From a bacterium D16-50 (GTDB taxonomy: Bacteria; Bacillota; Clostridia; Lachnospirales; Lachnospiraceae): a DNA stretch of 64,000 nucleotides. The stretch lies in assembly GCA_003612485.1 (NCBI GenBank), contig RAZA01000009.1:1-64000 (forward strand). The letters run 5' to 3'. A program made the position numbers and the translations under genes. Under the pieces are notes generated by a model. That model was given only the letters and a program-made list of their open reading frames with translations, was not told the origin of the DNA and did no database searches. This document shows, one piece after another, positions 15,288 through 30,584 of the stretch (position 1 is its first letter; every line of letters begins with the position of its first letter).

Positions 15288-15920
15288 ATGGAAAAACAGA
15301 CAGTAGAATTTCCTTTGGCAATGAGAGAATACCTAAAGGGAAAAGACTTGGTTGAAGTAGTGGATAATCACCGCAGCGGGGATAAGGTGTATCAGGTGGA
15401 TGATACATATATTCTGAAGATGTCTGAAAATGTGGAAAGACTTCGCCGGGAGATGGCTCTCAACGACTATCTGCGGGGCAGGCTGCCCGTATCCGAAACG
15501 GTTGCGTTTGCGGCGGAGGAAGAAAGGGCCTTTTACTTAAAAACAATGCTGCGCGGTGATAGTCTGGCGGACAAGAAGAATCTTCAGGATCCCCGGAAGC
15601 TGGTTGAGCTGCTGGTGAAAGCAGTGCATATGTTTCACGGCGTGGACGGCAGCGACTGTCCCATCAAATGTCCGGATTCTCAGGGCAGCTGTTTTGTACA
15701 CGGCGATTTCTGCCTTCCGAATATATTGGTTTGGGACGGAGAAATTAGCGGATTCATTGACACGGAGGCAGGGGGGCTGGGAGATCCTTGGATAGATTAT
15801 GCATGGTGCATCTGGTCTCTGGAGTATAATCTTGGAACGGACGAATATACGCCCCTTCTTCTGGAGGGCATAGGCATAGAATTCGACAAGGAAAAATTTG
15901 AATATTATACCCGTCTGTGA
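15288..15920 (+). CDS. Small APH-fold phosphotransferase
   Basis: A 210-aa protein starting 9 nt after the ABC exporter stop, with AGGAGGCGAC before the ATG. The catalytic loop VHGDFCLPNILV (~147-158) and metal-binding FIDTEAGGLGDPWIDYAW (~164-181) are those of APH(3')/choline-kinase-like enzymes. The N-lobe is recognisable (YQVDDTYILKMS). At 210 residues it is shorter than APH(3') enzymes (~260). Its position between the two halves of an exporter suggests modification of a compound the pump also handles, but this is inference. Confidence 0.8.
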   Translation: MEKQTVEFPLAMREYLKGKDLVEVVDNHRSGDKVYQVDDTYILKMSENVERLRREMALNDYLRGRLPVSETVAFAAEEERAFYLKTMLRGDSLADKKNLQDPRKLVELLVKAVHMFHGVDGSDCPIKCPDSQGSCFVHGDFCLPNILVWDGEISGFIDTEAGGLGDPWIDYAWCIWSLEYNLGTDEYTPLLLEGIGIEFDKEKFEYYTRL

Positions 15921-15950
15921 AACGGGACGCAGCTGGGAAGAGAGCAGGCT

Positions 15951-16270
15951 AGAGAGGACAAGACCGCAAGAAGGGCAAAAGAGCAAGGCGAAAAGAGTAA
16001 GACAGAGAAAAGAGCAGAGGACAAGGCGAAAAGAGCAAGGCGAAGAGGCAAGACCGCAAGAAGGGCAAAAGAGCAAGGCAAAAAGAGTAAGACAGAGAAA
16101 AGAGCAGAGGACAAGGCGAAAAGAGCAAGGTGAAGAGGCAAGACCGCAAGAAGGGCAAAAGAGCAAGGCGAAAAGAGTAAGACAGAGAAAAGCGCAGAGG
16201 GCAAGGCGAAAAGAGCAAGGCGAAGAGGCAATACCGCAAGCAGGGAAAAGAGCAAGATAAAAAGAGTAAG
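15951..16270 (+). repeat. 90-bp purine-rich tandem repeat
   Basis: Unit starts are at 15961, 16051 and 16141, giving an exact 90-bp period with a few substitutions per copy, then a degenerate partial copy. Similar purine-rich sequence, poorer in repeat order, continues to about 16390. The plus strand is almost free of T and consists of short runs such as AGAGCAAGGCGAAAAGAG. The unit is a multiple of 3, so a 120-codon frame (15898-16260) stays open, but it overlaps the kinase end, is Lys/Arg/Glu/Gln-rich, and has no good ribosome binding site, so I do not call it a gene. It fills the 475-nt gap before the next exporter gene. Confidence 0.9.
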
Positions 16271-21045: not shown

Positions 21046-21104
21046 TTAGCAGACAGAGCAATTTGAACGGGCGTTACATTAATATAATTTTGGAGGAATC
21101 AGAA

Positions 21105-22349
21105 ATGGCAAAGAAACGCAACATCATTGTAGGACAGTCTGGCGGCCCCACTGCCGTGATCAATTCCAGTCTGGCAGGCGTCTATAAGACGGCCAGAGAG
21201 AGAGGCTTCCACAAGGTTTACGGAATGCTTCACGGAATTCAGGGCTTTCTGGACGAGCAGTATGTGGATCTGTCCACCCAGATCCATACCGACATGGACA
21301 TCGAGCTGCTGAAGAGAACTCCTTCCGCATTCCTTGGCTCCTGCCGGTTCAAGCTTCCGGAGATCCATGAGAACAGTGAGATCTACGAGAAGATTTTCCA
21401 GATTCTGGACAAGCTGGACATCGAAGCCTTCATTTATATCGGAGGAAACGATTCCATGGATACCATCAAGAAGCTGTCCGATTATGCCATCGTGAAGGGG
21501 CATGAGCAGAAGTTTCTGGGTGTGCCCAAGACCATCGACAACGATCTGGCCCTCACCGACCATACTCCGGGCTTCGGCAGCGCTGCGAAGTACATCGCCG
21601 CATCCACCAAGGAGATCATCAGGGATGCTCTGGGCCTGACCTATAACGATAAGGAGGCCATCACGGTCATCGAGGTCATGGGCCGCAACGCAGGATGGCT
21701 TACCGGCGCCACCGCTCTGGCCAGAACGGAGGAGTGCGAGGGTCCCGATCTGATCTATCTGCCTGAGGTTGTCTTCGACATCGACAAATTCCTGAAGACC
21801 ACGCAGGATCTTCTGAAGAAGAAAGAGTCCGTAATCATAGCCGTTTCCGAGGGCATCAAGCTTGCTGACGGAAGGTATGTCTGCGAGCTGTCCGGCGGTG
21901 CCGATTATGTGGATGCTTTTGGACATAAGCAGCTGCAGGGAACCGCCGCGTATCTGGCCGGCTTCCTTGGGGCAGAGACGGGCTGCAAGACCCGCAGCAT
22001 CGAGTTCTCCACCTTGCAGAGAAGCGCGTCCCACATGGCTTCCCGTGTGGACGTGGACGAAGCGTTCATGGTGGGCGGCGCTGCAGTGAAGGCTGCGGAC
22101 GAGGGAGACACCGGCAAGATGGTGGTTATCGACCGTGTTGCGGACGATCCCTACATGAGCGCTGCAGGCATCTATGACGTGCATCGCATAGCCAACAACG
22201 AGAAGCTGGTTCCCCGTTCTTGGATGAACAAGGAAGGAAACTACGTGACGGAGGAGTTTATCAACTATGTAGAGCCTCTGATTCTGGGCGACTACCAGCC
22301 CTTTATGGTGAACGGCCTGCCTCAGCATCTGGTGCTTAGAAAGAAGTAA
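21105..22349 (+). CDS. pfp: PPi-dependent 6-phosphofructokinase
   Basis: A 414-aa enzyme that reversibly phosphorylates fructose 6-phosphate using pyrophosphate, the glycolytic PFK step in many anaerobes. The ATG at 21105 has TTGGAGGAATCAGAA upstream and gives the usual start MAKKRNIIVGQSGGPTAVIN. PPi-type features: GGNDSMD instead of the ATP-type GGDGS, and PKTIDNDL with its Lys. The catalytic loop, MGRNAGWLTG and the ISEG-like VSEG segment are all present. The codon use (many GAG, CTG, AAG) is that of a highly expressed gene. It stands alone with its own promoter. Confidence 0.93.
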   Translation: MAKKRNIIVGQSGGPTAVINSSLAGVYKTARERGFHKVYGMLHGIQGFLDEQYVDLSTQIHTDMDIELLKRTPSAFLGSCRFKLPEIHENSEIYEKIFQILDKLDIEAFIYIGGNDSMDTIKKLSDYAIVKGHEQKFLGVPKTIDNDLALTDHTPGFGSAAKYIAASTKEIIRDALGLTYNDKEAITVIEVMGRNAGWLTGATALARTEECEGPDLIYLPEVVFDIDKFLKTTQDLLKKKESVIIAVSEGIKLADGRYVCELSGGADYVDAFGHKQLQGTAAYLAGFLGAETGCKTRSIEFSTLQRSASHMASRVDVDEAFMVGGAAVKAADEGDTGKMVVIDRVADDPYMSAAGIYDVHRIANNEKLVPRSWMNKEGNYVTEEFINYVEPLILGDYQPFMVNGLPQHLVLRKK

Positions 22350-22568: not shown

Positions 22569-23288
22569 ATGGAAACAGTCAGGCGGGGCTATGAGCCGAA
22601 AGACATGGTTGAATTTGGTTCTAAAGCGGTTGAAAAAATGAGGGCTGCAGCGCAGGAGATGGTGTTTCTGCTGAATAGGGGATATGATACCAAATCCGCC
22701 TATACTTTTGTGGGGGATCATCATCTGCTCTCCTGGCGCCAACGAATGGCTCTGGCCCGGATTACATCGCCTCAGACTGCTCTGGAGGGGCGGGAGGGGA
22801 AGCGGCTGCTTCAGGCGCCGGAGTCTCTTGTTCTGGACGGGTTCAACACCATTATCACTTTGGAGGTGGCTTTATCCGGTTCCCTGCTTCTGGAGGGAAT
22901 GGATGGCACAATCCGGGATTTGGCCGGACTGCGGGGAAGCTATCGCATTGTAGACAAAACGGTGCGGGCAGTGGAACTGCTGCTGGGATGGATGGAAGAG
23001 CTGGGGGTAAAGGACGCTCTGTTTTACTTGGATCAGCAGGTATCCAATTCCGGTCGTCTTCGGGGGCTGCTGCTGGATAGAGCAGCCGATTCCGGTCTTC
23101 AGGTTGCAGTGGAACTGCATTCTGGTGTGGACGGCGTCCTCTCCCGTATGACAAACGTGGTCACTGCCGATGCCATCATTCTGGACAAGTGCGGCAGCTG
23201 GTTCAATTTAAACCGCGGACTGATCGAAAAGTATATTTTGGATGCGTGGATATTCCGGCTGGAAGGGCTGCCCGTATTGTTGAAATAA
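22569..23288 (+). CDS. DUF434/DUF5616 protein
   Basis: A 239-aa protein of the DUF434 family: an N-terminal helical region with YDTKSAYTFVGDHHLLSWRQRMALAR, followed by a C-terminal DUF5616-like domain with LVLDGFNTIITLEVALSG and YLDQQVSNSGRL. The invariant DGFN and DQxxSNSG residues suggest a nucleotide- or metal-binding enzyme, but no activity is known. ATGAGGAGATGTT precedes the ATG. It is a single gene with a strong terminator ~130 nt downstream. Confidence 0.85.
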   Translation: METVRRGYEPKDMVEFGSKAVEKMRAAAQEMVFLLNRGYDTKSAYTFVGDHHLLSWRQRMALARITSPQTALEGREGKRLLQAPESLVLDGFNTIITLEVALSGSLLLEGMDGTIRDLAGLRGSYRIVDKTVRAVELLLGWMEELGVKDALFYLDQQVSNSGRLRGLLLDRAADSGLQVAVELHSGVDGVLSRMTNVVTADAIILDKCGSWFNLNRGLIEKYILDAWIFRLEGLPVLLK

Positions 23289-23537: not shown

Positions 23538-25433
23538 CTATAATATGTCTTCCCTGCCCTCCCCATAGGCCTCCAGAGTATGTCTGTCGATCATGGCATT
23601 GGCAGCCCCTTGTCTGGAGATGCAGTATCCTGCCGCATAGTTGGCTATTCTGACAGCCTTTTCCATGGAACAGTCCTCTGCAAGAGAGGAGGCCAGAGCA
23701 GCAATGAAGGCGTCTGCCCCGGCGGTAGTGTCGGCAGGCAGGAAGCCTGGCGCCGCAGGAAAGAAGGTATCCGCTTGGGCGGACCGAAGATAGCATCCCT
23801 CCTGATCCAGAGTGATAATCACGACTTTTGCACCCTGAGAGAGAAAGAATGCTGCCTGCTCTTGAAAGCTGCTTTCTGGGGGACATAGGGAGGCAGCTTC
23901 TCTGCGGTTGGGCACGAAGATGTCCGTGTTTTCCAAAAGCTCCTTTGGGAGACTTCGCAGCGCGGCAGGCTTCACGATGGTAGAACAGCCGTGCTTTTTG
24001 GCGGTGACTGCCGCCTGCACGGCGGTCTCTGAGGAAATCTCGGTGGAGATCAGGCAGTAGCATGCGTTTTGGAATAAATGTTCGCGCTGCAGGATGTCCT
24101 GCGGTGAGAGGGAGCTGTTCGCGCCGGGCAGAACCGAGATGGCGCTCTCGCCGTTTTTTTCCGCATAAATATAGGCTTTTCCTGTCTGCATCTTTTGGTT
24201 CCGGTGTATTCCGCTGGTGATCACCTTGTTTTTTTCCAAGGCATCGAAAAGGACAGCCGAGTCTGCGTCAGTTCCCGTCTCCCCTATGAGGGCGGCCACA
24301 TGGCCTAGTCTGGCCAGACCTATTGACTGGTTCGTGCCTTTGCCGCCTACTGTGGAAGAGGAGCTTTGGATGTTCACCGTCTTTCCGTGCTGGGGCAGGG
24401 CTTCTACCTGAAAGGTGATATCCAGATTGAGGGCGCCTACCACCACAAAGCGTCGGCTGTGGTGGGGGGCCGGATGGCTGAGGCTGTCTTCGCTGTCCAG
24501 CTGTCTTGGGGTGGTGAAGACGATGGGCTCCCCATCCTCTGTCTTTTCGCAGAGGCGGACGAGCTGTTCGGCCACATATTTTCCGAATTCATGATACGGG
24601 ATCTGGATTCCGGATATCTCGCAGCGTCTGGGAGTCTCCTCAGGTTCTTTGAGACTGACGAGGGAAAAGGCGGAAGGGACAGGATAATGCGCGCGCGTCA
24701 TCTTTTCGTATAGTTCCACCGACTGCGCCAGATGGGAGCTGACAATGCCGGAGGTTCGGAGGTTTATGATGCTTTGAGTGCATTCGTCTCCTGCGGAATA
24801 AAAGACTCTTGCCTCGGAGAAAGGGATGTTATTGTAATAAAGGCAGTTTCTGAATCCCTTTAAAACGGCTGCCGACCGATGGCTTTCCGCTTTCAATAGG
24901 CAGGCGATGTCCTTGTGGCCATAGTCGATCAGGCTCTGGGTCATGGCGTAGCCCATACTCTCAAAATTTATGGAATAGGAAGGGGAAGATTTGGATAGGG
25001 CATTGATGAGGCATGCCGGGATGCTATGGCTGTCGAACTGCTGGAGACTCTGGACCTCCGCGGGGTTCACCGGCTCCCATATGACGCCGTCCACGTTATG
25101 GCCGCAGAGCACGGCTATGTTTTTTGCCTCAAGTTCCAAAGATTCACGGCTGTCCAGCAGCAGTATGGAATATCCTCTGTCTTGTGCCCTATGCAAAATC
25201 CCGTCGATCATGCGGCTTGCCTTGGAAGCATTGCGCAGCAGGACTCCCAGCATGAATTTCTTTGCCCTTGAGACGCTTTTAACGGTTCCGTAAGGGGTGA
25301 AATTGTATTCCTTCACGATTTTAAGAACGCGGCTGCGAGTCTGGGGGTTGATGTTGTCGGCTTTGTCGTTTATGACCTTGGAAACGGTAGAAACAGACAC
25401 GTCCGCAAGTTTGGCAATTTCCTTTATTGTCAT
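23538..25433 (-). CDS. LacI-family regulator fused to a PfkB/ribokinase domain
   Basis: A 631-aa fusion. Residues 1-60 are a LacI HTH (MTIKEIAKLADVSVSTVSKV), ~60-320 a periplasmic-binding-protein-like sensor domain, and ~328-631 a ribokinase-type domain (FVVVGALNLDITF, VGGKGTNQSIGLARLG). The sugar-contact residues seen in RbsK (N and D of NLD, GGKGTNQ) are kept. The anion-hole/catalytic motif reads DTTAGADAF, whereas the separate ribokinase at 29640 has DTTAAGDAF: the Gly just before the catalytic Asp is now Ala. It may be a weak kinase or a sugar-phosphate sensor. It is divergent from the sugar transporter and probably controls it. Confidence 0.88.
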   Translation of the reverse strand: MTIKEIAKLADVSVSTVSKVINDKADNINPQTRSRVLKIVKEYNFTPYGTVKSVSRAKKFMLGVLLRNASKASRMIDGILHRAQDRGYSILLLDSRESLELEAKNIAVLCGHNVDGVIWEPVNPAEVQSLQQFDSHSIPACLINALSKSSPSYSINFESMGYAMTQSLIDYGHKDIACLLKAESHRSAAVLKGFRNCLYYNNIPFSEARVFYSAGDECTQSIINLRTSGIVSSHLAQSVELYEKMTRAHYPVPSAFSLVSLKEPEETPRRCEISGIQIPYHEFGKYVAEQLVRLCEKTEDGEPIVFTTPRQLDSEDSLSHPAPHHSRRFVVVGALNLDITFQVEALPQHGKTVNIQSSSSTVGGKGTNQSIGLARLGHVAALIGETGTDADSAVLFDALEKNKVITSGIHRNQKMQTGKAYIYAEKNGESAISVLPGANSSLSPQDILQREHLFQNACYCLISTEISSETAVQAAVTAKKHGCSTIVKPAALRSLPKELLENTDIFVPNRREAASLCPPESSFQEQAAFFLSQGAKVVIITLDQEGCYLRSAQADTFFPAAPGFLPADTTAGADAFIAALASSLAEDCSMEKAVRIANYAAGYCISRQGAANAMIDRHTLEAYGEGREDIL

Positions 25434-25519: not shown

Positions 25520-25550
25520 CAGAAAAGCAGTGGTGTATGTGATAATGTAT

Positions 25551-25670
25551 AAGAAAATATTTTAAGAAAAAATTTTTTTATATATTTTGTAAAATATAAT
25601 TGACAAAATAAGGATTTTAATATATTCTGACAATAAGAAAACATTTTAGGAAAGAATTTTCTTTATGACA
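25551..25670 (+). promoter_or_regulatory. Sugar-transporter promoter with a repeated operator-like element
   Basis: TTGACA at 25600-25605 and TATTCT at 25623-25628 (17-nt spacer; TATATT at 25621 is an alternative). A ~32-nt element occurs twice in the same orientation, at about 25551 (AGAAAATATTTTAAGAAAAA) and 25637 (AGAAAACATTTTAGGAAAGA), flanking the promoter. The second ends in AAAGAATTTTCTTT, an inverted repeat. The pair is a candidate binding site for the divergently encoded regulator. Confidence 0.55.
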
Positions 25671-25766: not shown

Positions 25767-26723
25767 ATGATGGGTAATTTATCTGCGGTCGGCTTATCTG
25801 GGGGCAGGAAAAAAGGAAGGCATGGACTGCTGGAGCAGATCAAAAAGAATAGGTGCATCTATCTGTTCATGGCCGTCTCTCTTGGGTGGTATCTGCTGTT
25901 TTGCTATGGTCCTATGTATGGCCTTTTGCTGGCGTTCAAGGATTTCAACGCATCCAAAGGGATTCTCATGAGTCCCTTCGTGGGGCTGAAGCATTATAGA
26001 GAACTGTTTCAGAATGCGGAGTTTTTTGAGGCGTTCTTCAATACGCTGGTCATAAGCTTCAGCAGGCTGTTGGTTGAGTTTCCTGCGCCGATCATTCTGG
26101 CGCTGTTGCTGAATGAGCTTCGGGACGGGCCCTACAAGAAGACACTTCAGACGATCTATACATTTCCGTATTTTCTGAGCTGGGTCGTGGTGGGGAGCAT
26201 TGTTCTGAACATGCTGGGCAGCGACGGGGTGGTGAACAATCTTCTGAATATGACGGGAATCGGGAGCCAGAAGTTCCTTGCGGATAAATCGCTTTTCAGG
26301 CCGCTGCTCTATATCACCAGCATATGGAAATCGGCAGGCTGGACGAGCATCATCTATCTGGCGTCCATGTCTGCCGTGTCCCCGGAGCTATATGAAGCAG
26401 CCACCATCGACGGCGCCAACCGTCTGCAGCGCATCCGGTATGTGACCCTTCCGTGCATTCGTCCGACTATTGTGGTAATGCTGCTGATGGCCGTGGGAAA
26501 TACCATGAACGCGGGATTCGACCAGATTTTCAATATGTATAATCCGGCGGTGCGGTCGGTCTCCGAAATACTGGATACCTATATCTACAGAATCACGTTT
26601 CAGACATCAGGGGATTTCGGCTTCAGCACGGCAGTAGGGCTGTTCAAGTCTGTCATCAACTTCATCCTATTGTTTGCCTTTGACCGTCTGGCCAAGCGCA
26701 TGGGAGAGGAAGGGCTGTTCTGA
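25767..26723 (+). CDS. Sugar ABC transporter permease, LplB type
   Basis: About 318 aa from the ATG at 25767, which has AAGGGAGGGAGA upstream; an earlier frame start at 25695 is not supported. It has six membrane segments and the EAA loop EAATIDGANRLQRIRYVTLP that docks the ATPase. This class (LplB/YtcP) imports oligosaccharides in Firmicutes and normally uses a shared MsmX-like ATPase encoded elsewhere; no ATPase is present here. It is first in an operon with a second permease, a binding protein and probably the ribokinase. Confidence 0.9.
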   Translation: MMGNLSAVGLSGGRKKGRHGLLEQIKKNRCIYLFMAVSLGWYLLFCYGPMYGLLLAFKDFNASKGILMSPFVGLKHYRELFQNAEFFEAFFNTLVISFSRLLVEFPAPIILALLLNELRDGPYKKTLQTIYTFPYFLSWVVVGSIVLNMLGSDGVVNNLLNMTGIGSQKFLADKSLFRPLLYITSIWKSAGWTSIIYLASMSAVSPELYEAATIDGANRLQRIRYVTLPCIRPTIVVMLLMAVGNTMNAGFDQIFNMYNPAVRSVSEILDTYIYRITFQTSGDFGFSTAVGLFKSVINFILLFAFDRLAKRMGEEGLF

Positions 26724-26793
26724 GCGGGAGGTCACAGCCGTATTGGATAAAGAGGAGGATGGAGCGGAGGGTTACCGGGAAAGGAGAGGTATT

Positions 26794-27678
26794 ATGGCAG
26801 GAAAGAAGAGGGGTAAAAAGCGGCGGCAGGCTCCGGCGCAGCTGGTGATAGGTATATTTCTGGGACTTTTGGCGTTGCTGGTGGTGTTTCCGTTCTACAA
26901 TGCGATACTGGCATCCATATCAACGCAGAAGGAGTTTTCGCTGAATCCTTTGATGCTGTTTCCCAAGGAGCCGACGCTGTCGCCCTATACATATCTGATG
27001 GAGGCCACGAACCTGATGAAAGGATATGGGAACACGCTTTTCGTGCTTGTTCTGGGTGTTCCCTTCAATATGCTGGTCACAGTGGCAACGGGCTATGCCA
27101 TGGCCCGGCCTGCGTATCCGGGCAAGAAGCTGTTCGTGTTTCTGATCTTGTTCACCATGTATTTCAGCGGCGGTATGGTTCCGCTCTATCTGCTGATGAA
27201 GGATCTGCATTTGACGAACAAGCTCATAGGGATTGTGCTTCTGTATGGCGGCAATACCTTTTATGCGATTTTGATAAGGAATTTCTTCCAGTCCATTCCC
27301 AAAGAGCTGGAAGAGTCTGCGCGAATGGACGGGGCGGGGGAGTTTACTTTATTCTTCAGGATTTTGCTTCCTCTGACAGTGCCCATCCTTGTGACGGTTC
27401 TGCTGTTTTTCACGGTGGACAGATGGAACGAGTGGTTCAATACCATGATTATGGTGCGCAGCTCAGACAAATGGACACTGCAGGTCATTCTGCGAAACAT
27501 TGTATTTACCACGCTGGATGATATGGCCAGCCGCGTAGTATCGGTGGAAAAGACCTATTATTCCCTGAGCTTGAAGATGGCGGCAATAGTCCTCACCATG
27601 GCTCCGGTGATGGTTCTGTATCCCTTTACACAGAGGTTCTTTATGAAGGGTATTATGGTGGGCTCTGTAAAGGGATGA
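26794..27678 (+). CDS. Sugar ABC transporter permease, YtcP type
   Basis: A 294-aa partner permease. The ATG at 26794 follows AAAGGAGAGGT and is preferred over the frame start at 26674, which lies inside the previous gene. It has a Lys/Arg-rich N-terminus, six membrane segments and the EAA loop EESARMDGAGEFTLFFRILLP near residue 185. The C-terminal GIMVGSVKG is the usual YtcP ending. It pairs with the LplB-like protein to form the membrane channel. Confidence 0.9.
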   Translation: MAGKKRGKKRRQAPAQLVIGIFLGLLALLVVFPFYNAILASISTQKEFSLNPLMLFPKEPTLSPYTYLMEATNLMKGYGNTLFVLVLGVPFNMLVTVATGYAMARPAYPGKKLFVFLILFTMYFSGGMVPLYLLMKDLHLTNKLIGIVLLYGGNTFYAILIRNFFQSIPKELEESARMDGAGEFTLFFRILLPLTVPILVTVLLFFTVDRWNEWFNTMIMVRSSDKWTLQVILRNIVFTTLDDMASRVVSVEKTYYSLSLKMAAIVLTMAPVMVLYPFTQRFFMKGIMVGSVKG

Positions 27679-27784
27679 TGGATATACATAGAAAATGATG
27701 TCAATAGGAAGTAAGGGGGCAATTCAGCAACGGCTTCGGCGTTTTTGGGCGCATGGGCAAAACATCGATGAAGGAGGTAAAAGT

Positions 27785-29368
27785 ATGAGGAGAACAAGAA
27801 ATAGGATTTTGGCCGGTTTGTTGTGCGGAGCTATGGCGCTGAATATGGGTGCCTGCGGGCAGGATGACTCAGGGCGGAGAGAGAGCGGACAGATTCACTT
27901 TACTGCCACGTCCATCAATTTGCCGGACAATGTGAGTTTCATGGAAGACGACATCTATAAGGCCTATAACGAAAAATTCAACTTTACCTATGAGCTTACA
28001 AACATTACATGGGAGACTTGGGACGAGGGAGACCGCATTTGGATTATTTCCGGGGACATGCCGGACATGCTTTTCTGGAATTTCAATCTAAAGGATTATA
28101 AATCCTACACCAGTCAGGGGCTGCTGAAGCCGCTGCCGGAGGATCTGGAGGAAAAGTATCCCAATCTGGCGGCAGCCATGGAAAAGACGGGCATTGCAGG
28201 TTATCTGAAGTCCGTGGATCCGGAGAACAAGCTCTATATGATCCCCAATGTGATCTATCTGAATCCGCCTACAGAGACCACGGATATCATTTTGGATCCC
28301 AAGGTTCTCTATTACCGCAAGGATTGGGCCAAGGCCGTGGGCATAGACGTGGGGGAGACCATTACCACGGAGCAGGTCGCAGAGCTGGCCAAGGCGTTCA
28401 TAGAGAAAGATCCCGGCGGCAACGGCGCAGGAAAGACTATAGGATTGACTGCGACTCCGGGGAACATGGACGCAGTGTTTGTACAGAGCCATAACGCTTT
28501 CTTTAATCAGTTTTATAAAGGCGCGGACGGAAAGTATGTCTGGGGCGGCTTCGACGATTCTACTCTTGAGGGCGTGAAGGAACTGCGCAAATACTATGAA
28601 ATGGGAGTGATTGACCCTGACTATTATGCGTTCAAGGGCAAGGAGCACTATGAGAAGTTCGACAGCGGAATCGCAGGCATGTTCTTTGACGGCGCATCGG
28701 GAGCGAATGTGAACGAGCGTTTCCAGTCCTTTGCCCGCATGAATAAGGACATTAATCCTTCCGATGCCATCGGACTTTCCGTGGTGGTTGGAGCCGACGG
28801 GGTCTACCGCGGCGAACAGAACGTTATCAACTATTGGGCGGGGCTGCTGTTTAGGCCTGATCTGGACGATGAGGTTTTGGAATGCATTCTGAGCATTCTG
28901 GATTATTCTTGTACGGAGGAAGGGCAGAGGCTGATTCATCTGGGCATAGAGGGTAAAGACTTTACGCTGGACGGTGACGAAATCACTGTGACCAGAGAAA
29001 AAGATGCCAACGGAGAGTTCGTGTCCATTGCGGATCTTTATCCTTCCTATAATTTCTTCTTTACGAAGGCCGTGTTTCCGGATGACTGGTCCGCCCATGA
29101 CCCCTCTCTGCCCAAGGCGGTGCTGGAGCAGGCTATGAATATGTTCCATGTGAAGGAGCGGGCGGCAGAGCTGGTGGAGCCGGATTACGATGTGGTACTG
29201 TTTGACGGCGAACAGAAGCTGAAGTTCCCCATTTCCATAAATGAGATCATTACGGAAATCGTAGTTTCCGGCGACGATGTGGTCAAGCGCTGGGAGATCT
29301 TCAAGAAGGACAATGCCAAGACCGTGCAGGGCGTTCTGGATGAGATCAATGAGGCCCTTGCAAAGTAG
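27785..29368 (+). CDS. Extracellular solute-binding lipoprotein
   Basis: A 527-aa lipoprotein. The ATG at 27785 follows GAAGGAGGTAAAAGT. The signal peptide ends with lipobox MGAC at ~Cys24, so it should be lipidated and anchored outside the membrane. The remainder has the size and layout of the large LplA-type family 1 binding proteins that serve LplB/YtcP permeases (start WETWDEGDRIWIISGDMPDM, then many aromatic residues for carbohydrate stacking). The preferred sugar is unknown; the neighbouring ribokinases suggest a pentose-containing or ribose-yielding compound. Confidence 0.9.
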   Translation: MRRTRNRILAGLLCGAMALNMGACGQDDSGRRESGQIHFTATSINLPDNVSFMEDDIYKAYNEKFNFTYELTNITWETWDEGDRIWIISGDMPDMLFWNFNLKDYKSYTSQGLLKPLPEDLEEKYPNLAAAMEKTGIAGYLKSVDPENKLYMIPNVIYLNPPTETTDIILDPKVLYYRKDWAKAVGIDVGETITTEQVAELAKAFIEKDPGGNGAGKTIGLTATPGNMDAVFVQSHNAFFNQFYKGADGKYVWGGFDDSTLEGVKELRKYYEMGVIDPDYYAFKGKEHYEKFDSGIAGMFFDGASGANVNERFQSFARMNKDINPSDAIGLSVVVGADGVYRGEQNVINYWAGLLFRPDLDDEVLECILSILDYSCTEEGQRLIHLGIEGKDFTLDGDEITVTREKDANGEFVSIADLYPSYNFFFTKAVFPDDWSAHDPSLPKAVLEQAMNMFHVKERAAELVEPDYDVVLFDGEQKLKFPISINEIITEIVVSGDDVVKRWEIFKKDNAKTVQGVLDEINEALAK

Positions 29369-29639: not shown

Positions 29640-30584
29640 ATGAGAGACAAGAAAAGGATACTGGTCATCGGGAGCCTGAACTTGGACATGGTGGTCAGTG
29701 CGGATCATGTTCCGCTGGCGGGAGAGACGATTCTGGGCAGGAATATGGCTTTGGTTCCGGGAGGCAAGGGGGCGAATCAGGCCTGCGCGGCAGGAAGGCT
29801 GGGAGCGGACACAGTCATGCTGGGGGCCCTTGGACAAGACGCCCACGGAAGGCTCTTGGAGAGCAGTTTGAGGGAATCGGGGGTGGACGTGTCCAGACTG
29901 CTGTGGCGCGACCACAAGGAAACGGGATTGGCCATGATCACGGTGGGCGACAGCGGGGAAAACTCCATCGTGGTGGTGCCGGGGGCCAACGCCACCTTGA
30001 CTTTGGAGGATCTGGACAGGAACCGCGACCTGATCGAGGGCTGCGACGGGGTGATCCTGCAGCTGGAGATTCCCGTGGAGACCGTGTGCCATGGGGCGAG
30101 GCTGGCAAAGAGTCTGGGGAAGACGGTGATATTGGATCCTGCCCCCGTGCCCAGACATTTTCCGGAAGAGCTGTACGGATATGCGGATGTTATCAAGCCC
30201 AATGAGACGGAGCTGGGAATGCTCACCGGAATCAGTGATGTCACGAATCATCTTGAGGAGGCGGCGGAAGTCATCAGGAACCGGGGCGGAAAGGACTTGG
30301 TGGTGACGCTTGGGGAAAAAGGAGTATTCTTGGCGTCCAAGGTCTATGGAATCCGGAGAATCCCTGCCGTCAAGGTGAAGGCGGTGGACACCACTGCTGC
30401 CGGGGACGCCTTCACGGCGGCACTGGCCTATCAGCTGCTGGAGGGAAGGGGGCTGCTGGAGGCTGCAGAGTTTGCGAATTTGGTCTCCGCCATGGTAGTG
30501 ACCAGAAAGGGGGCGCAATCCTCCATCCCCTCAATGGAGGAGGTGGAGAACTGGAGAGACGCCGCGGAATTCCTGGAGGGATAG
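29640..30584 (+). CDS. rbsK: Ribokinase
   Basis: A 314-aa PfkB-family kinase converting ribose to ribose 5-phosphate. It has GSLNLDMVVSADHVPLAGET, GGKGANQACAAGRLG, ILQLEIPVETV, IKPNETE and the intact catalytic motif DTTAAGDAFTAAL near residue 253. GGAGGAGACCGAA precedes the ATG. It lies 270 nt after the binding-protein gene on the same strand; a function in the same sugar pathway is inferred from this context and from the ribokinase domain on the regulator. Confidence 0.92.
   Translation: MRDKKRILVIGSLNLDMVVSADHVPLAGETILGRNMALVPGGKGANQACAAGRLGADTVMLGALGQDAHGRLLESSLRESGVDVSRLLWRDHKETGLAMITVGDSGENSIVVVPGANATLTLEDLDRNRDLIEGCDGVILQLEIPVETVCHGARLAKSLGKTVILDPAPVPRHFPEELYGYADVIKPNETELGMLTGISDVTNHLEEAAEVIRNRGGKDLVVTLGEKGVFLASKVYGIRRIPAVKVKAVDTTAAGDAFTAALAYQLLEGRGLLEAAEFANLVSAMVVTRKGAQSSIPSMEEVENWRDAAEFLEG

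Follow-up and report, generated by a model that had tools for sequence, protein, structure and literature searches.

We have identified, in a window of 64,000 nucleotides from the Lachnospiraceae bacterium D16-50 (the window being the whole stretch of DNA analysed), a single protein that joins a LacI-type regulator to a ribokinase-like PfkB domain. This protein is probably a ribose-responsive transcription factor that arose from an RbsR-type LacI repressor and a ribokinase, and in which the kinase half traded catalysis for sensing. We infer that the crippled ribokinase now serves as the ribose receptor, having lost catalysis and kept ribose binding, in a protein that would bind DNA. With the sugar pocket of the repressor itself decayed, sugar sensing has probably passed to the former enzyme, in a family of regulators whose genes lie beside those for nucleoside and ribose uptake. 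This reading draws on the architecture of the protein, substitutions found across its family, purifying selection, a conserved upstream palindrome and the gene context, all of which were computed (Table 1).

Table 1. Features of the fusion locus, with positions in the window
Feature	Position	Strand	Basis
LacI-PfkB fusion regulator, 631 aa	23538..25433	-	single open frame; Pfam LacI + Peripla_BP_3 + PfkB
LacI helix-turn-helix, residues 2-47	25293..25430	-	PF00356, 56.3 bits (cut-off 27)
LacI core, ~residues 60-305, canonical effector pocket 0/7	24519..25256	-	Peripla_BP_3 and pocket score
PfkB (ribokinase-like) domain, residues 328-613	23595..24452	-	PF00294, 165.5 bits
Lys488, where E. coli RbsK has Asn166	23970..23972	-	family alignment
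Altered anion-hole motif DTTAGAD, residues 568-574	23712..23732	-	sequence and family alignment
Predicted operator pair A	25548..25582	.	overlapping sites 25548-25569 (17/22) and 25561-25582 (17/22)
Promoter-like TTGACA-17-TATTCT, between the operator pairs	25600..25628	+	consensus scan, weak evidence
Predicted operator pair B	25632..25666	.	sites 25632-25653 (15/22) and 25645-25666 (17/22)
ABC permease, divergent to the fusion	25767..26723	+	clusters with BPD_transp_1 permeases
Second ABC permease	26674..27678	+	BPD_transp_1, 34.8 bits
Presumed binding lipoprotein	27695..29368	+	position and lipobox-like start; no Pfam match
Standalone ribokinase RbsK, canonical DTTAAGD	29640..30584	+	TIGR02152, 329.9 bits

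The original prediction of a LacI regulator carrying a full PfkB domain was confirmed by Pfam, which places PF00294 at residues 328-613. Peripla_BP_3 (PF13377) was found at residues 166-305 with 34.2 bits (cut-off 26.5), and residues 2-324 match CcpA (3oqm) in a phmmer search with an E value of 2.6e-23, so that a periplasmic-binding-protein-like core is present. Against the NCBIfam ribokinase model TIGR02152, which has a cut-off of 299.65 bits, the fusion scores below the cut-off (228.4 bits) and the standalone RbsK above it (329.9 bits). No ROK family was found among the seven Pfam matches of the fusion at E values up to 0.01, nor among the 25 of its 40 NCBIfam matches that were listed.

An AlphaFold2 model of the fusion was built with an alignment from 64 fusions, for which 63 of the 79 named loci were used; these loci were obtained by a pattern scan from the best 80 of 569 relatives. 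The model has a mean pLDDT of 91.7 and a pTM of 0.64. In this model the individual domains are confident and their relative arrangement is uncertain, and residues 52-54, where the LacI hinge would be expected, have a pLDDT below 50. The modelled PfkB part superposes on 1rkd, the structure of E. coli ribokinase with ribose and ADP, with a Z score of 43.7 and 1.6 A over 302 residues. Among the structural matches listed, neighbours were found for the PfkB part only, and these include nucleoside and pseudouridine kinases.

The PfkB domain of the fusion is altered in the anion hole. As had been noticed from the sequence, the fusion reads AGAD where the ribokinase 4 kb away reads AAGD; the complete motifs are DTTAGAD and DTTAAGD, the two genes are 4.2 kb apart, and the pattern (G/A)xGD is absent from the fusion. 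When aligned to RbsK of E. coli K-12, the motif corresponds to D249-D255, and Gly254 is replaced by Ala. Judging from this alignment, we take the loss of Gly254 to be the change that matters and the neighbouring replacement of Ala253 by Gly to be secondary. In human ketohexokinase, the motif forms the anion hole and the N of Gly257 contacts the beta-gamma bridge of the nucleotide (excerpt of PMC2651755), and Gly257 is the equivalent of the Gly that the fusion has replaced.

Alignment of the fusion family showed the same loss in most members. Among the hits of the whole-genome searches, the Gly254 equivalent is replaced in 35 of 38 fusions (by Ala in 28, Cys in three, Ser in two, and Val and Ile in one each), whereas 48 of 50 standalone kinases have retained it and two have a gap there. 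Before all sets were tallied, three copies (one broken, one split, one truncated) and 12 duplicates were removed; the Gly is then missing in 99 of 107 fusions, whose other eight members still have GAGD, and kept in 101 of 103 standalone kinases, again with two gapped. In two further-degraded fusions (L054:1497-3417 and L055:1422-3396), the kinase half reads SHTAGID and SHTAGVD, with Ser for Asp249 and GGKAS for GGKGxN. Another fusion, L023:1440-3420, has lost the catalytic Asp255 (DTTGAAN) and is the sole such case among the 107.

Three other accounts of the motif were considered and ruled out. The loss of the Gly across the fusion family rules out an oddity of one protein. A general looseness of this residue in PfkB proteins is ruled out by its retention in 28 of the 29 non-fusion PfkB loci read (13 genomes; 30 loci fetched of 44 matches), the exception, L184, being divergent; the residue before the Gly varies among A, C, G and S in the non-fusion PfkB loci of these genomes. 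The pattern scan for related loci included an anion-hole pattern, and a bias from this source was dismissed as well, since 68 of the 69 non-duplicate scanned fusions contain a different search pattern too, and among these the result is unchanged (Gly in 5 of 68).

The ribose site was retained together with this altered loop. E. coli RbsK contacts ribose through Asn14, Asp16, Gly42, Lys43, Asn46, Glu143 and Asp255 (excerpt of PMC9604405). Our score used six of these contacts (N14, D16, K43, N46, E143 and D255), leaving out Gly42, and by sequence alignment to E. coli RbsK all six are present in the window fusion; the expectation that the sugar-binding residues are kept thus holds for this protein. 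The complete set of six is present in 93 of 107 fusions versus 89 of 103 standalone kinases. Only one of the 107 fusions is without the catalytic Asp255, and Asn187, Glu190 and Thr223, which we take to be nucleotide-site residues, are found in 104, 103 and 106 of them, respectively. Because the nucleotide-site residues are kept, ATP or ADP could still be bound, and with Asp255 also kept in most fusions, slow turnover is possible.

In 15 pairs of close relatives, the dN/dS of the kinase half was 0.02-0.09 and that of the LacI core 0.03-0.13, with one core value undefined, and the kinase half had the lower value in 10 of the 14 pairs computable for both. Considering the kept residues and this purifying selection on the kinase half, the PfkB domain is maintained and is no relic. 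The same kinase-half values, together with relatives at 53-54% identity that likewise lack the Gly, rule out a sequencing error or a decaying gene. A kept ribose pocket beside an altered phosphate loop fits a sensor better than an enzyme.

On the other hand, the protein could be a bifunctional trigger enzyme, in which the PfkB domain is still a ribokinase, perhaps a slow one, and the regulator reads the ATP and ribose state during turnover. We consider this unlikely, though it is the strongest of the competing explanations. The Gly is present in all readable members of the 103 standalone kinases and in 28 of 29 other PfkB loci, its backbone NH makes the beta-gamma bridge contact in human ketohexokinase (excerpt of PMC2651755), and a separate PfkB kinase lies beside 32 of 48 long-flank fusions; yet Asp255 (106 of 107) and the nucleotide residues (103-106 of 107) persist, and GAGD is present in eight fusions. 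In the named set of 79 loci, 0 of 6 GAGD fusions and 34 of 73 others have a kinase scoring above 200 bits in the neighbourhood (p 0.03); this association has a p of 0.06 with longer contigs and a p of 0.18, which is not significant, at a 100-bit threshold. Since the GAGD fusions are without such a neighbouring kinase, some members of the family may still be enzymes.

The position of E. coli Asn166 also separates the two groups, being Lys in 103 of 107 fusions versus 0 of 102 readable standalone kinases, and further fusion-specific positions exist. Human ketohexokinase has Lys-Pro at the position of Lys488; hence, we do not claim that Lys488 alone stops catalysis. Together with the altered loop, however, this Lys may have remade the phosphate site, and in this case the PfkB domain would respond to something other than ribose, for example ribose 5-phosphate, a nucleoside or ATP/ADP. 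The nucleoside and pseudouridine kinases among the structural neighbours are consistent with such a ligand. Considering the proportions of fusions and standalone kinases in which the six ribose residues are complete, we regard another ligand as improbable, and more so than a trigger enzyme.

The LacI half was compared with 26 unfused LacI proteins, many of which lie beside a kinase gene. The fusions have lost the equivalents of E. coli RbsR Y74, D146, W147, R195, N246, D247 and D274; based on knowledge of LacI, PurR and RbsR, we take the scored positions to be the effector pocket and the hinge. Among 108 fusions, the pocket score out of seven was 0 in 60, 1 in 32, 2 in 11, 3 in four and 4 in one, whereas among the 26 unfused proteins it was 7 in 16, 6 in six, 5 in one, 4 in two and 2 in one. 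A score of at least 6/7 was thus reached by 0 of 108 fusions versus 22 of 26 unfused proteins, and the window fusion scores 0/7. The hinge signature (N, A, R/K, L/M) is 1/4 in the window fusion, and 4/4 in 0 of 108 fusions versus 18 of 26 unfused proteins. As the LacI core has lost its pocket residues, the PfkB domain is the only one that still resembles a sugar receptor. The original prediction had pictured two sugar-input domains, and this part was not supported, as there is probably one; the part that was supported is its interpretation of the kinase domain, with a motif change that proved to be family-wide and a sensor that fits better than an enzyme. A normal motif in all other fusions would have spoken against that interpretation, and the 99 of 107 fusions without the Gly decide this check in its favour.

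It is very improbable that the PfkB domain is a passive structural module and that the LacI core still senses some effector. The LacI core is under purifying selection (dN/dS 0.03-0.13) and is confidently modelled, as such an arrangement would have it, but a passive module would hardly keep the ribose residues in 93 of 107 members or show the lower dN/dS in 10 of 14 pairs, and the pocket of the LacI core is the one that has lost its residues.

A conserved palindrome was found upstream of the fusion genes. EM over 260 bp upstream of 107 fusion genes gave the 22-bp palindrome TTTAGGAAAATATTTTCCTAAA, which is without a central CG, with a log-likelihood of 589 versus 127-144 in five shuffled sets. 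In cross-validation, a model trained on 53 regions scored above 99% of shuffles in 33 of 50 dissimilar held-out regions. Sites of at least 17/22 were present in 47 of 107 upstream regions versus 0.0 expected from shuffles, and 31 of 107 regions are without a site of at least 15/22. The 79 named loci (1.21 Mb; best 80 of 569 relatives) contain 52 sites of at least 17/22, of which 45, from 40 loci, are no more than 400 bp upstream of the fusion start; sites of at least 14/22 are most often 13 bp apart (51 pairs). Three strong sites away from the fusion start lie ahead of nucleoside-related genes, which encode a nucleoside-hydrolase-like protein in L088, an ECF component in L132 and a PnrA-like binding protein in L134. 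The 22-bp palindromes upstream of the fusion genes of L082-L160 were often seen as overlapping pairs with a 13-bp offset, and some pairs are about 84-101 bp apart.

In the window, predicted operator pairs A and B are 84 bp apart in the gap between the fusion and the divergent permease, and a consensus scan gave 5 promoter-like sequences versus a mean of 1.9 in shuffles. At a stringency of 15/22, the palindrome matches at two further places in the 64-kb window. In the genome of the window, sites with one mismatch were found only in this intergenic gap, and the genome-wide count of the palindrome was no higher than that of the control. The lost hinge fits a palindrome without the central CG that is present in the printed RbsR3 consensus (excerpt of PMC4746261).

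The divergent permease of the window likely starts at ATG 25767, and the listed open reading frame starts at TTG 25695. The cluster in the window consists of permeases, a presumed binding lipoprotein and RbsK, and no recognised nucleoside hydrolase was found in it. Neighbours were counted in the 48 of the 79 named loci that have 7.5 kb on both sides, with clusters named by Pfam, and the values are raw counts from the fusion loci. In these 48 loci, genes of the nucleoside-hydrolase type were found in 23 and of the ADP-ribosylglycohydrolase type in 15, with either in 36. Transport genes included PnrA-like binding proteins in 12 loci, BPD_transp_2 permeases in 13, BPD_transp_1 permeases in 17 and ECF transporters in seven; a separate PfkB kinase was found in 32, and three had none of the listed types. 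Proteins of the ADP-ribosylglycohydrolase family, about 480 or 720 aa long, are a recurrent feature of the fusion clusters (e.g., L092:1370-3544) and may be ribosyl hydrolases of a nucleoside pathway. Elsewhere in the window, a protein with DUF434 and DUF5616 (22569-23288) lies between a PPi-type phosphofructokinase (21063-22349) and the fusion, and the tandem low-complexity repeats at 15898-16260 (such as RRKEQGEEARPQEGQKSKAKRVRQRK) leave several reading frames open on both strands.

Searches with the whole protein gave matches in 24 of 299 genomes of the family, including its own genome and one split and one truncated copy. In the order, 27 of 392 genomes matched, seven of them with internal stops that represent adjacent LacI and kinase genes, and in the phylum 25 of 398 matched, among which only the window's own was full-length without a stop. 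These searches scored the best three or four candidates per genome, and second copies may be missed. In all 79 named loci (best 80 of 569 relatives), one frame spans both halves. They are mostly from Lachnospiraceae and other Clostridia, with others from Enterococcus, Paenibacillus, Levilactobacillus, Erysipelotrichaceae and Treponema socranskii, and thus comprise Bacillota plus one Treponema. A single-protein scan of genome contigs gave no locus, and four plasmid records comprised two of Enterococcus raffinosus without annotation and two of Thermus with separate LacI and rbsK genes. All ten same-genus genomes listed were without a match at an E value of 1e-100, although the genome of the window has the fusion, and this patchy distribution within the genus points to gene transfer or to frequent loss. 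A split fusion, with the LacI and PfkB halves in two adjacent frames, is present in one genome (L030:410-1483 region, L027), and another genome (L029, L031) has a second, broken copy about 11 kb from an intact one.

In a FastTree phylogeny with the motif columns omitted, the fusion kinase domains formed one group with a support of 96. The standalone kinase L061 falls inside this group, at its base, and the next relatives, L063 and L064, are standalone kinases with the canonical motif. The LacI halves (39 of 108 fusions) formed one clade with a support of 94, which adjoins E. coli RbsR and regulators beside kinase genes with a support of 99. Because the GAGD members are nested, with at least seven changes on the whole tree, the motif state changed more than once. 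The near-basal fusion of Gordonibacillus kamchatkensis (L159:7983-9917) has the canonical motifs GAGD and NPAP, a pocket score of 4/7, a hinge score of 0/4 and a 19/22 palindrome 74 bp upstream. This protein is a possible intermediate with an active kinase, as suggested by its sequence, and the word intermediate is used with reserve because the deep branching is weakly supported (36). On balance, we find it about evenly credible that a sensor was transplanted: after the fusion of RbsR and RbsK, the LacI core would have given up its pocket and the ribokinase its catalysis, and the pseudo-ribokinase would have become the receptor of a hinge-less LacI-type repressor that reads a CG-less palindrome, with L159 as a living intermediate.

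Based on these features, we propose how the ribose-responsive regulator might work. Its ribose pocket is kept, and its loop for the ATP gamma-phosphate is altered, with Ala, Ser or Cys taking the place of Gly254 in most members. A signal ought not to be consumed by its sensor, which would explain the altered phosphate loop beside the kept sugar pocket. The LacI half, without its effector pocket and hinge signature, would serve as a DNA-binding and assembly scaffold. When there is no ribose, the fusion would sit on the palindromes between its own gene and the divergent transporter-RbsK operon and repress, perhaps with a DNA loop spanning 84 bp. Import and cleavage of ribosides would let free ribose accumulate and bind the PfkB domain. 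The lid of the PfkB domain would then close, as described for E. coli RbsK (excerpt of PMC9604405), and we infer that this closure would change the LacI dimer and take the protein off the palindromes. The separate intact RbsK would consume the ribose and thereby reset the switch.

The principle that a kinase fold can become a sensor is known, but the pair of parts is apparently new, and here the old sensor was apparently retired. ROK repressors such as NagC and Mlc join a DNA-binding domain to a sugar-kinase fold turned sensor, but they differ from the fusion in that they have another kinase superfamily and another DNA-binding domain. Both halves of the fusion descend from the RbsR and RbsK families; however, the fusion is one protein, has lost the LacI pocket, the hinge signature and the anion-hole Gly, and has a palindrome different from the RbsR3 consensus. 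In bifidobacteria, RbsR2 and RbsR3 control genes for nucleoside hydrolase, ribokinase and nucleoside transporters (excerpt of PMC4746261). Yeast Gal3p is a non-catalytic galactokinase relative that binds sugar and ATP and controls transcription (excerpt of PMC3409070); unlike the fusion, it has a galactokinase-family fold and no DNA-binding domain, and works through Gal80p. The plant PfkB proteins FLN1 and FLN2 are reported to be without fructokinase activity and are tied to plastid transcription (excerpts of PMC9698557 and PMC3409070). They have no DNA-binding domain, and their motif is changed in its second residue (GSGD or ASGD); because GSGD is also found in ordinary PfkB loci, the FLN lesion is not the same as that of the fusion, and the motif parallel is weak.

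A further comparable protein is RikA (STM3547) of Salmonella, which has a predicted DNA-binding domain before a PfkB domain with ribose kinase activity (excerpt of PMC13432705). Unlike the fusion, RikA has a DeoR-type domain, no LacI core and an active enzyme, and evidence from its authors indicates that the N-terminal part is not produced (same excerpt). Among open-access PMC papers, some represented by their titles and the beginnings of their abstracts, we found no published description of a LacI-ribokinase or LacI-PfkB fusion family; PMC4052901 has no mention of 'fusion', 'fused' or 'kinase domain', and PMC5882156 has no mention of 'kinase' or 'pfkb'.

In summary, enzymes turned transcriptional sensors are known case by case, from Gal3p, the ROK repressors and perhaps FLN. 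The present family has more than 100 members, in which a tree lets one follow how the catalytic loop changed and how the old sensor was lost; it also offers an apparent intermediate and a predicted operator. The question of how an enzyme becomes a sensor is thereby made testable with a few point mutants. For annotation, our study is a warning that neither 'ribokinase' nor 'LacI regulator' names more than half of such a fusion protein. For the organisms themselves, it points to a regulator of nucleoside and ribose salvage in gut Lachnospiraceae.
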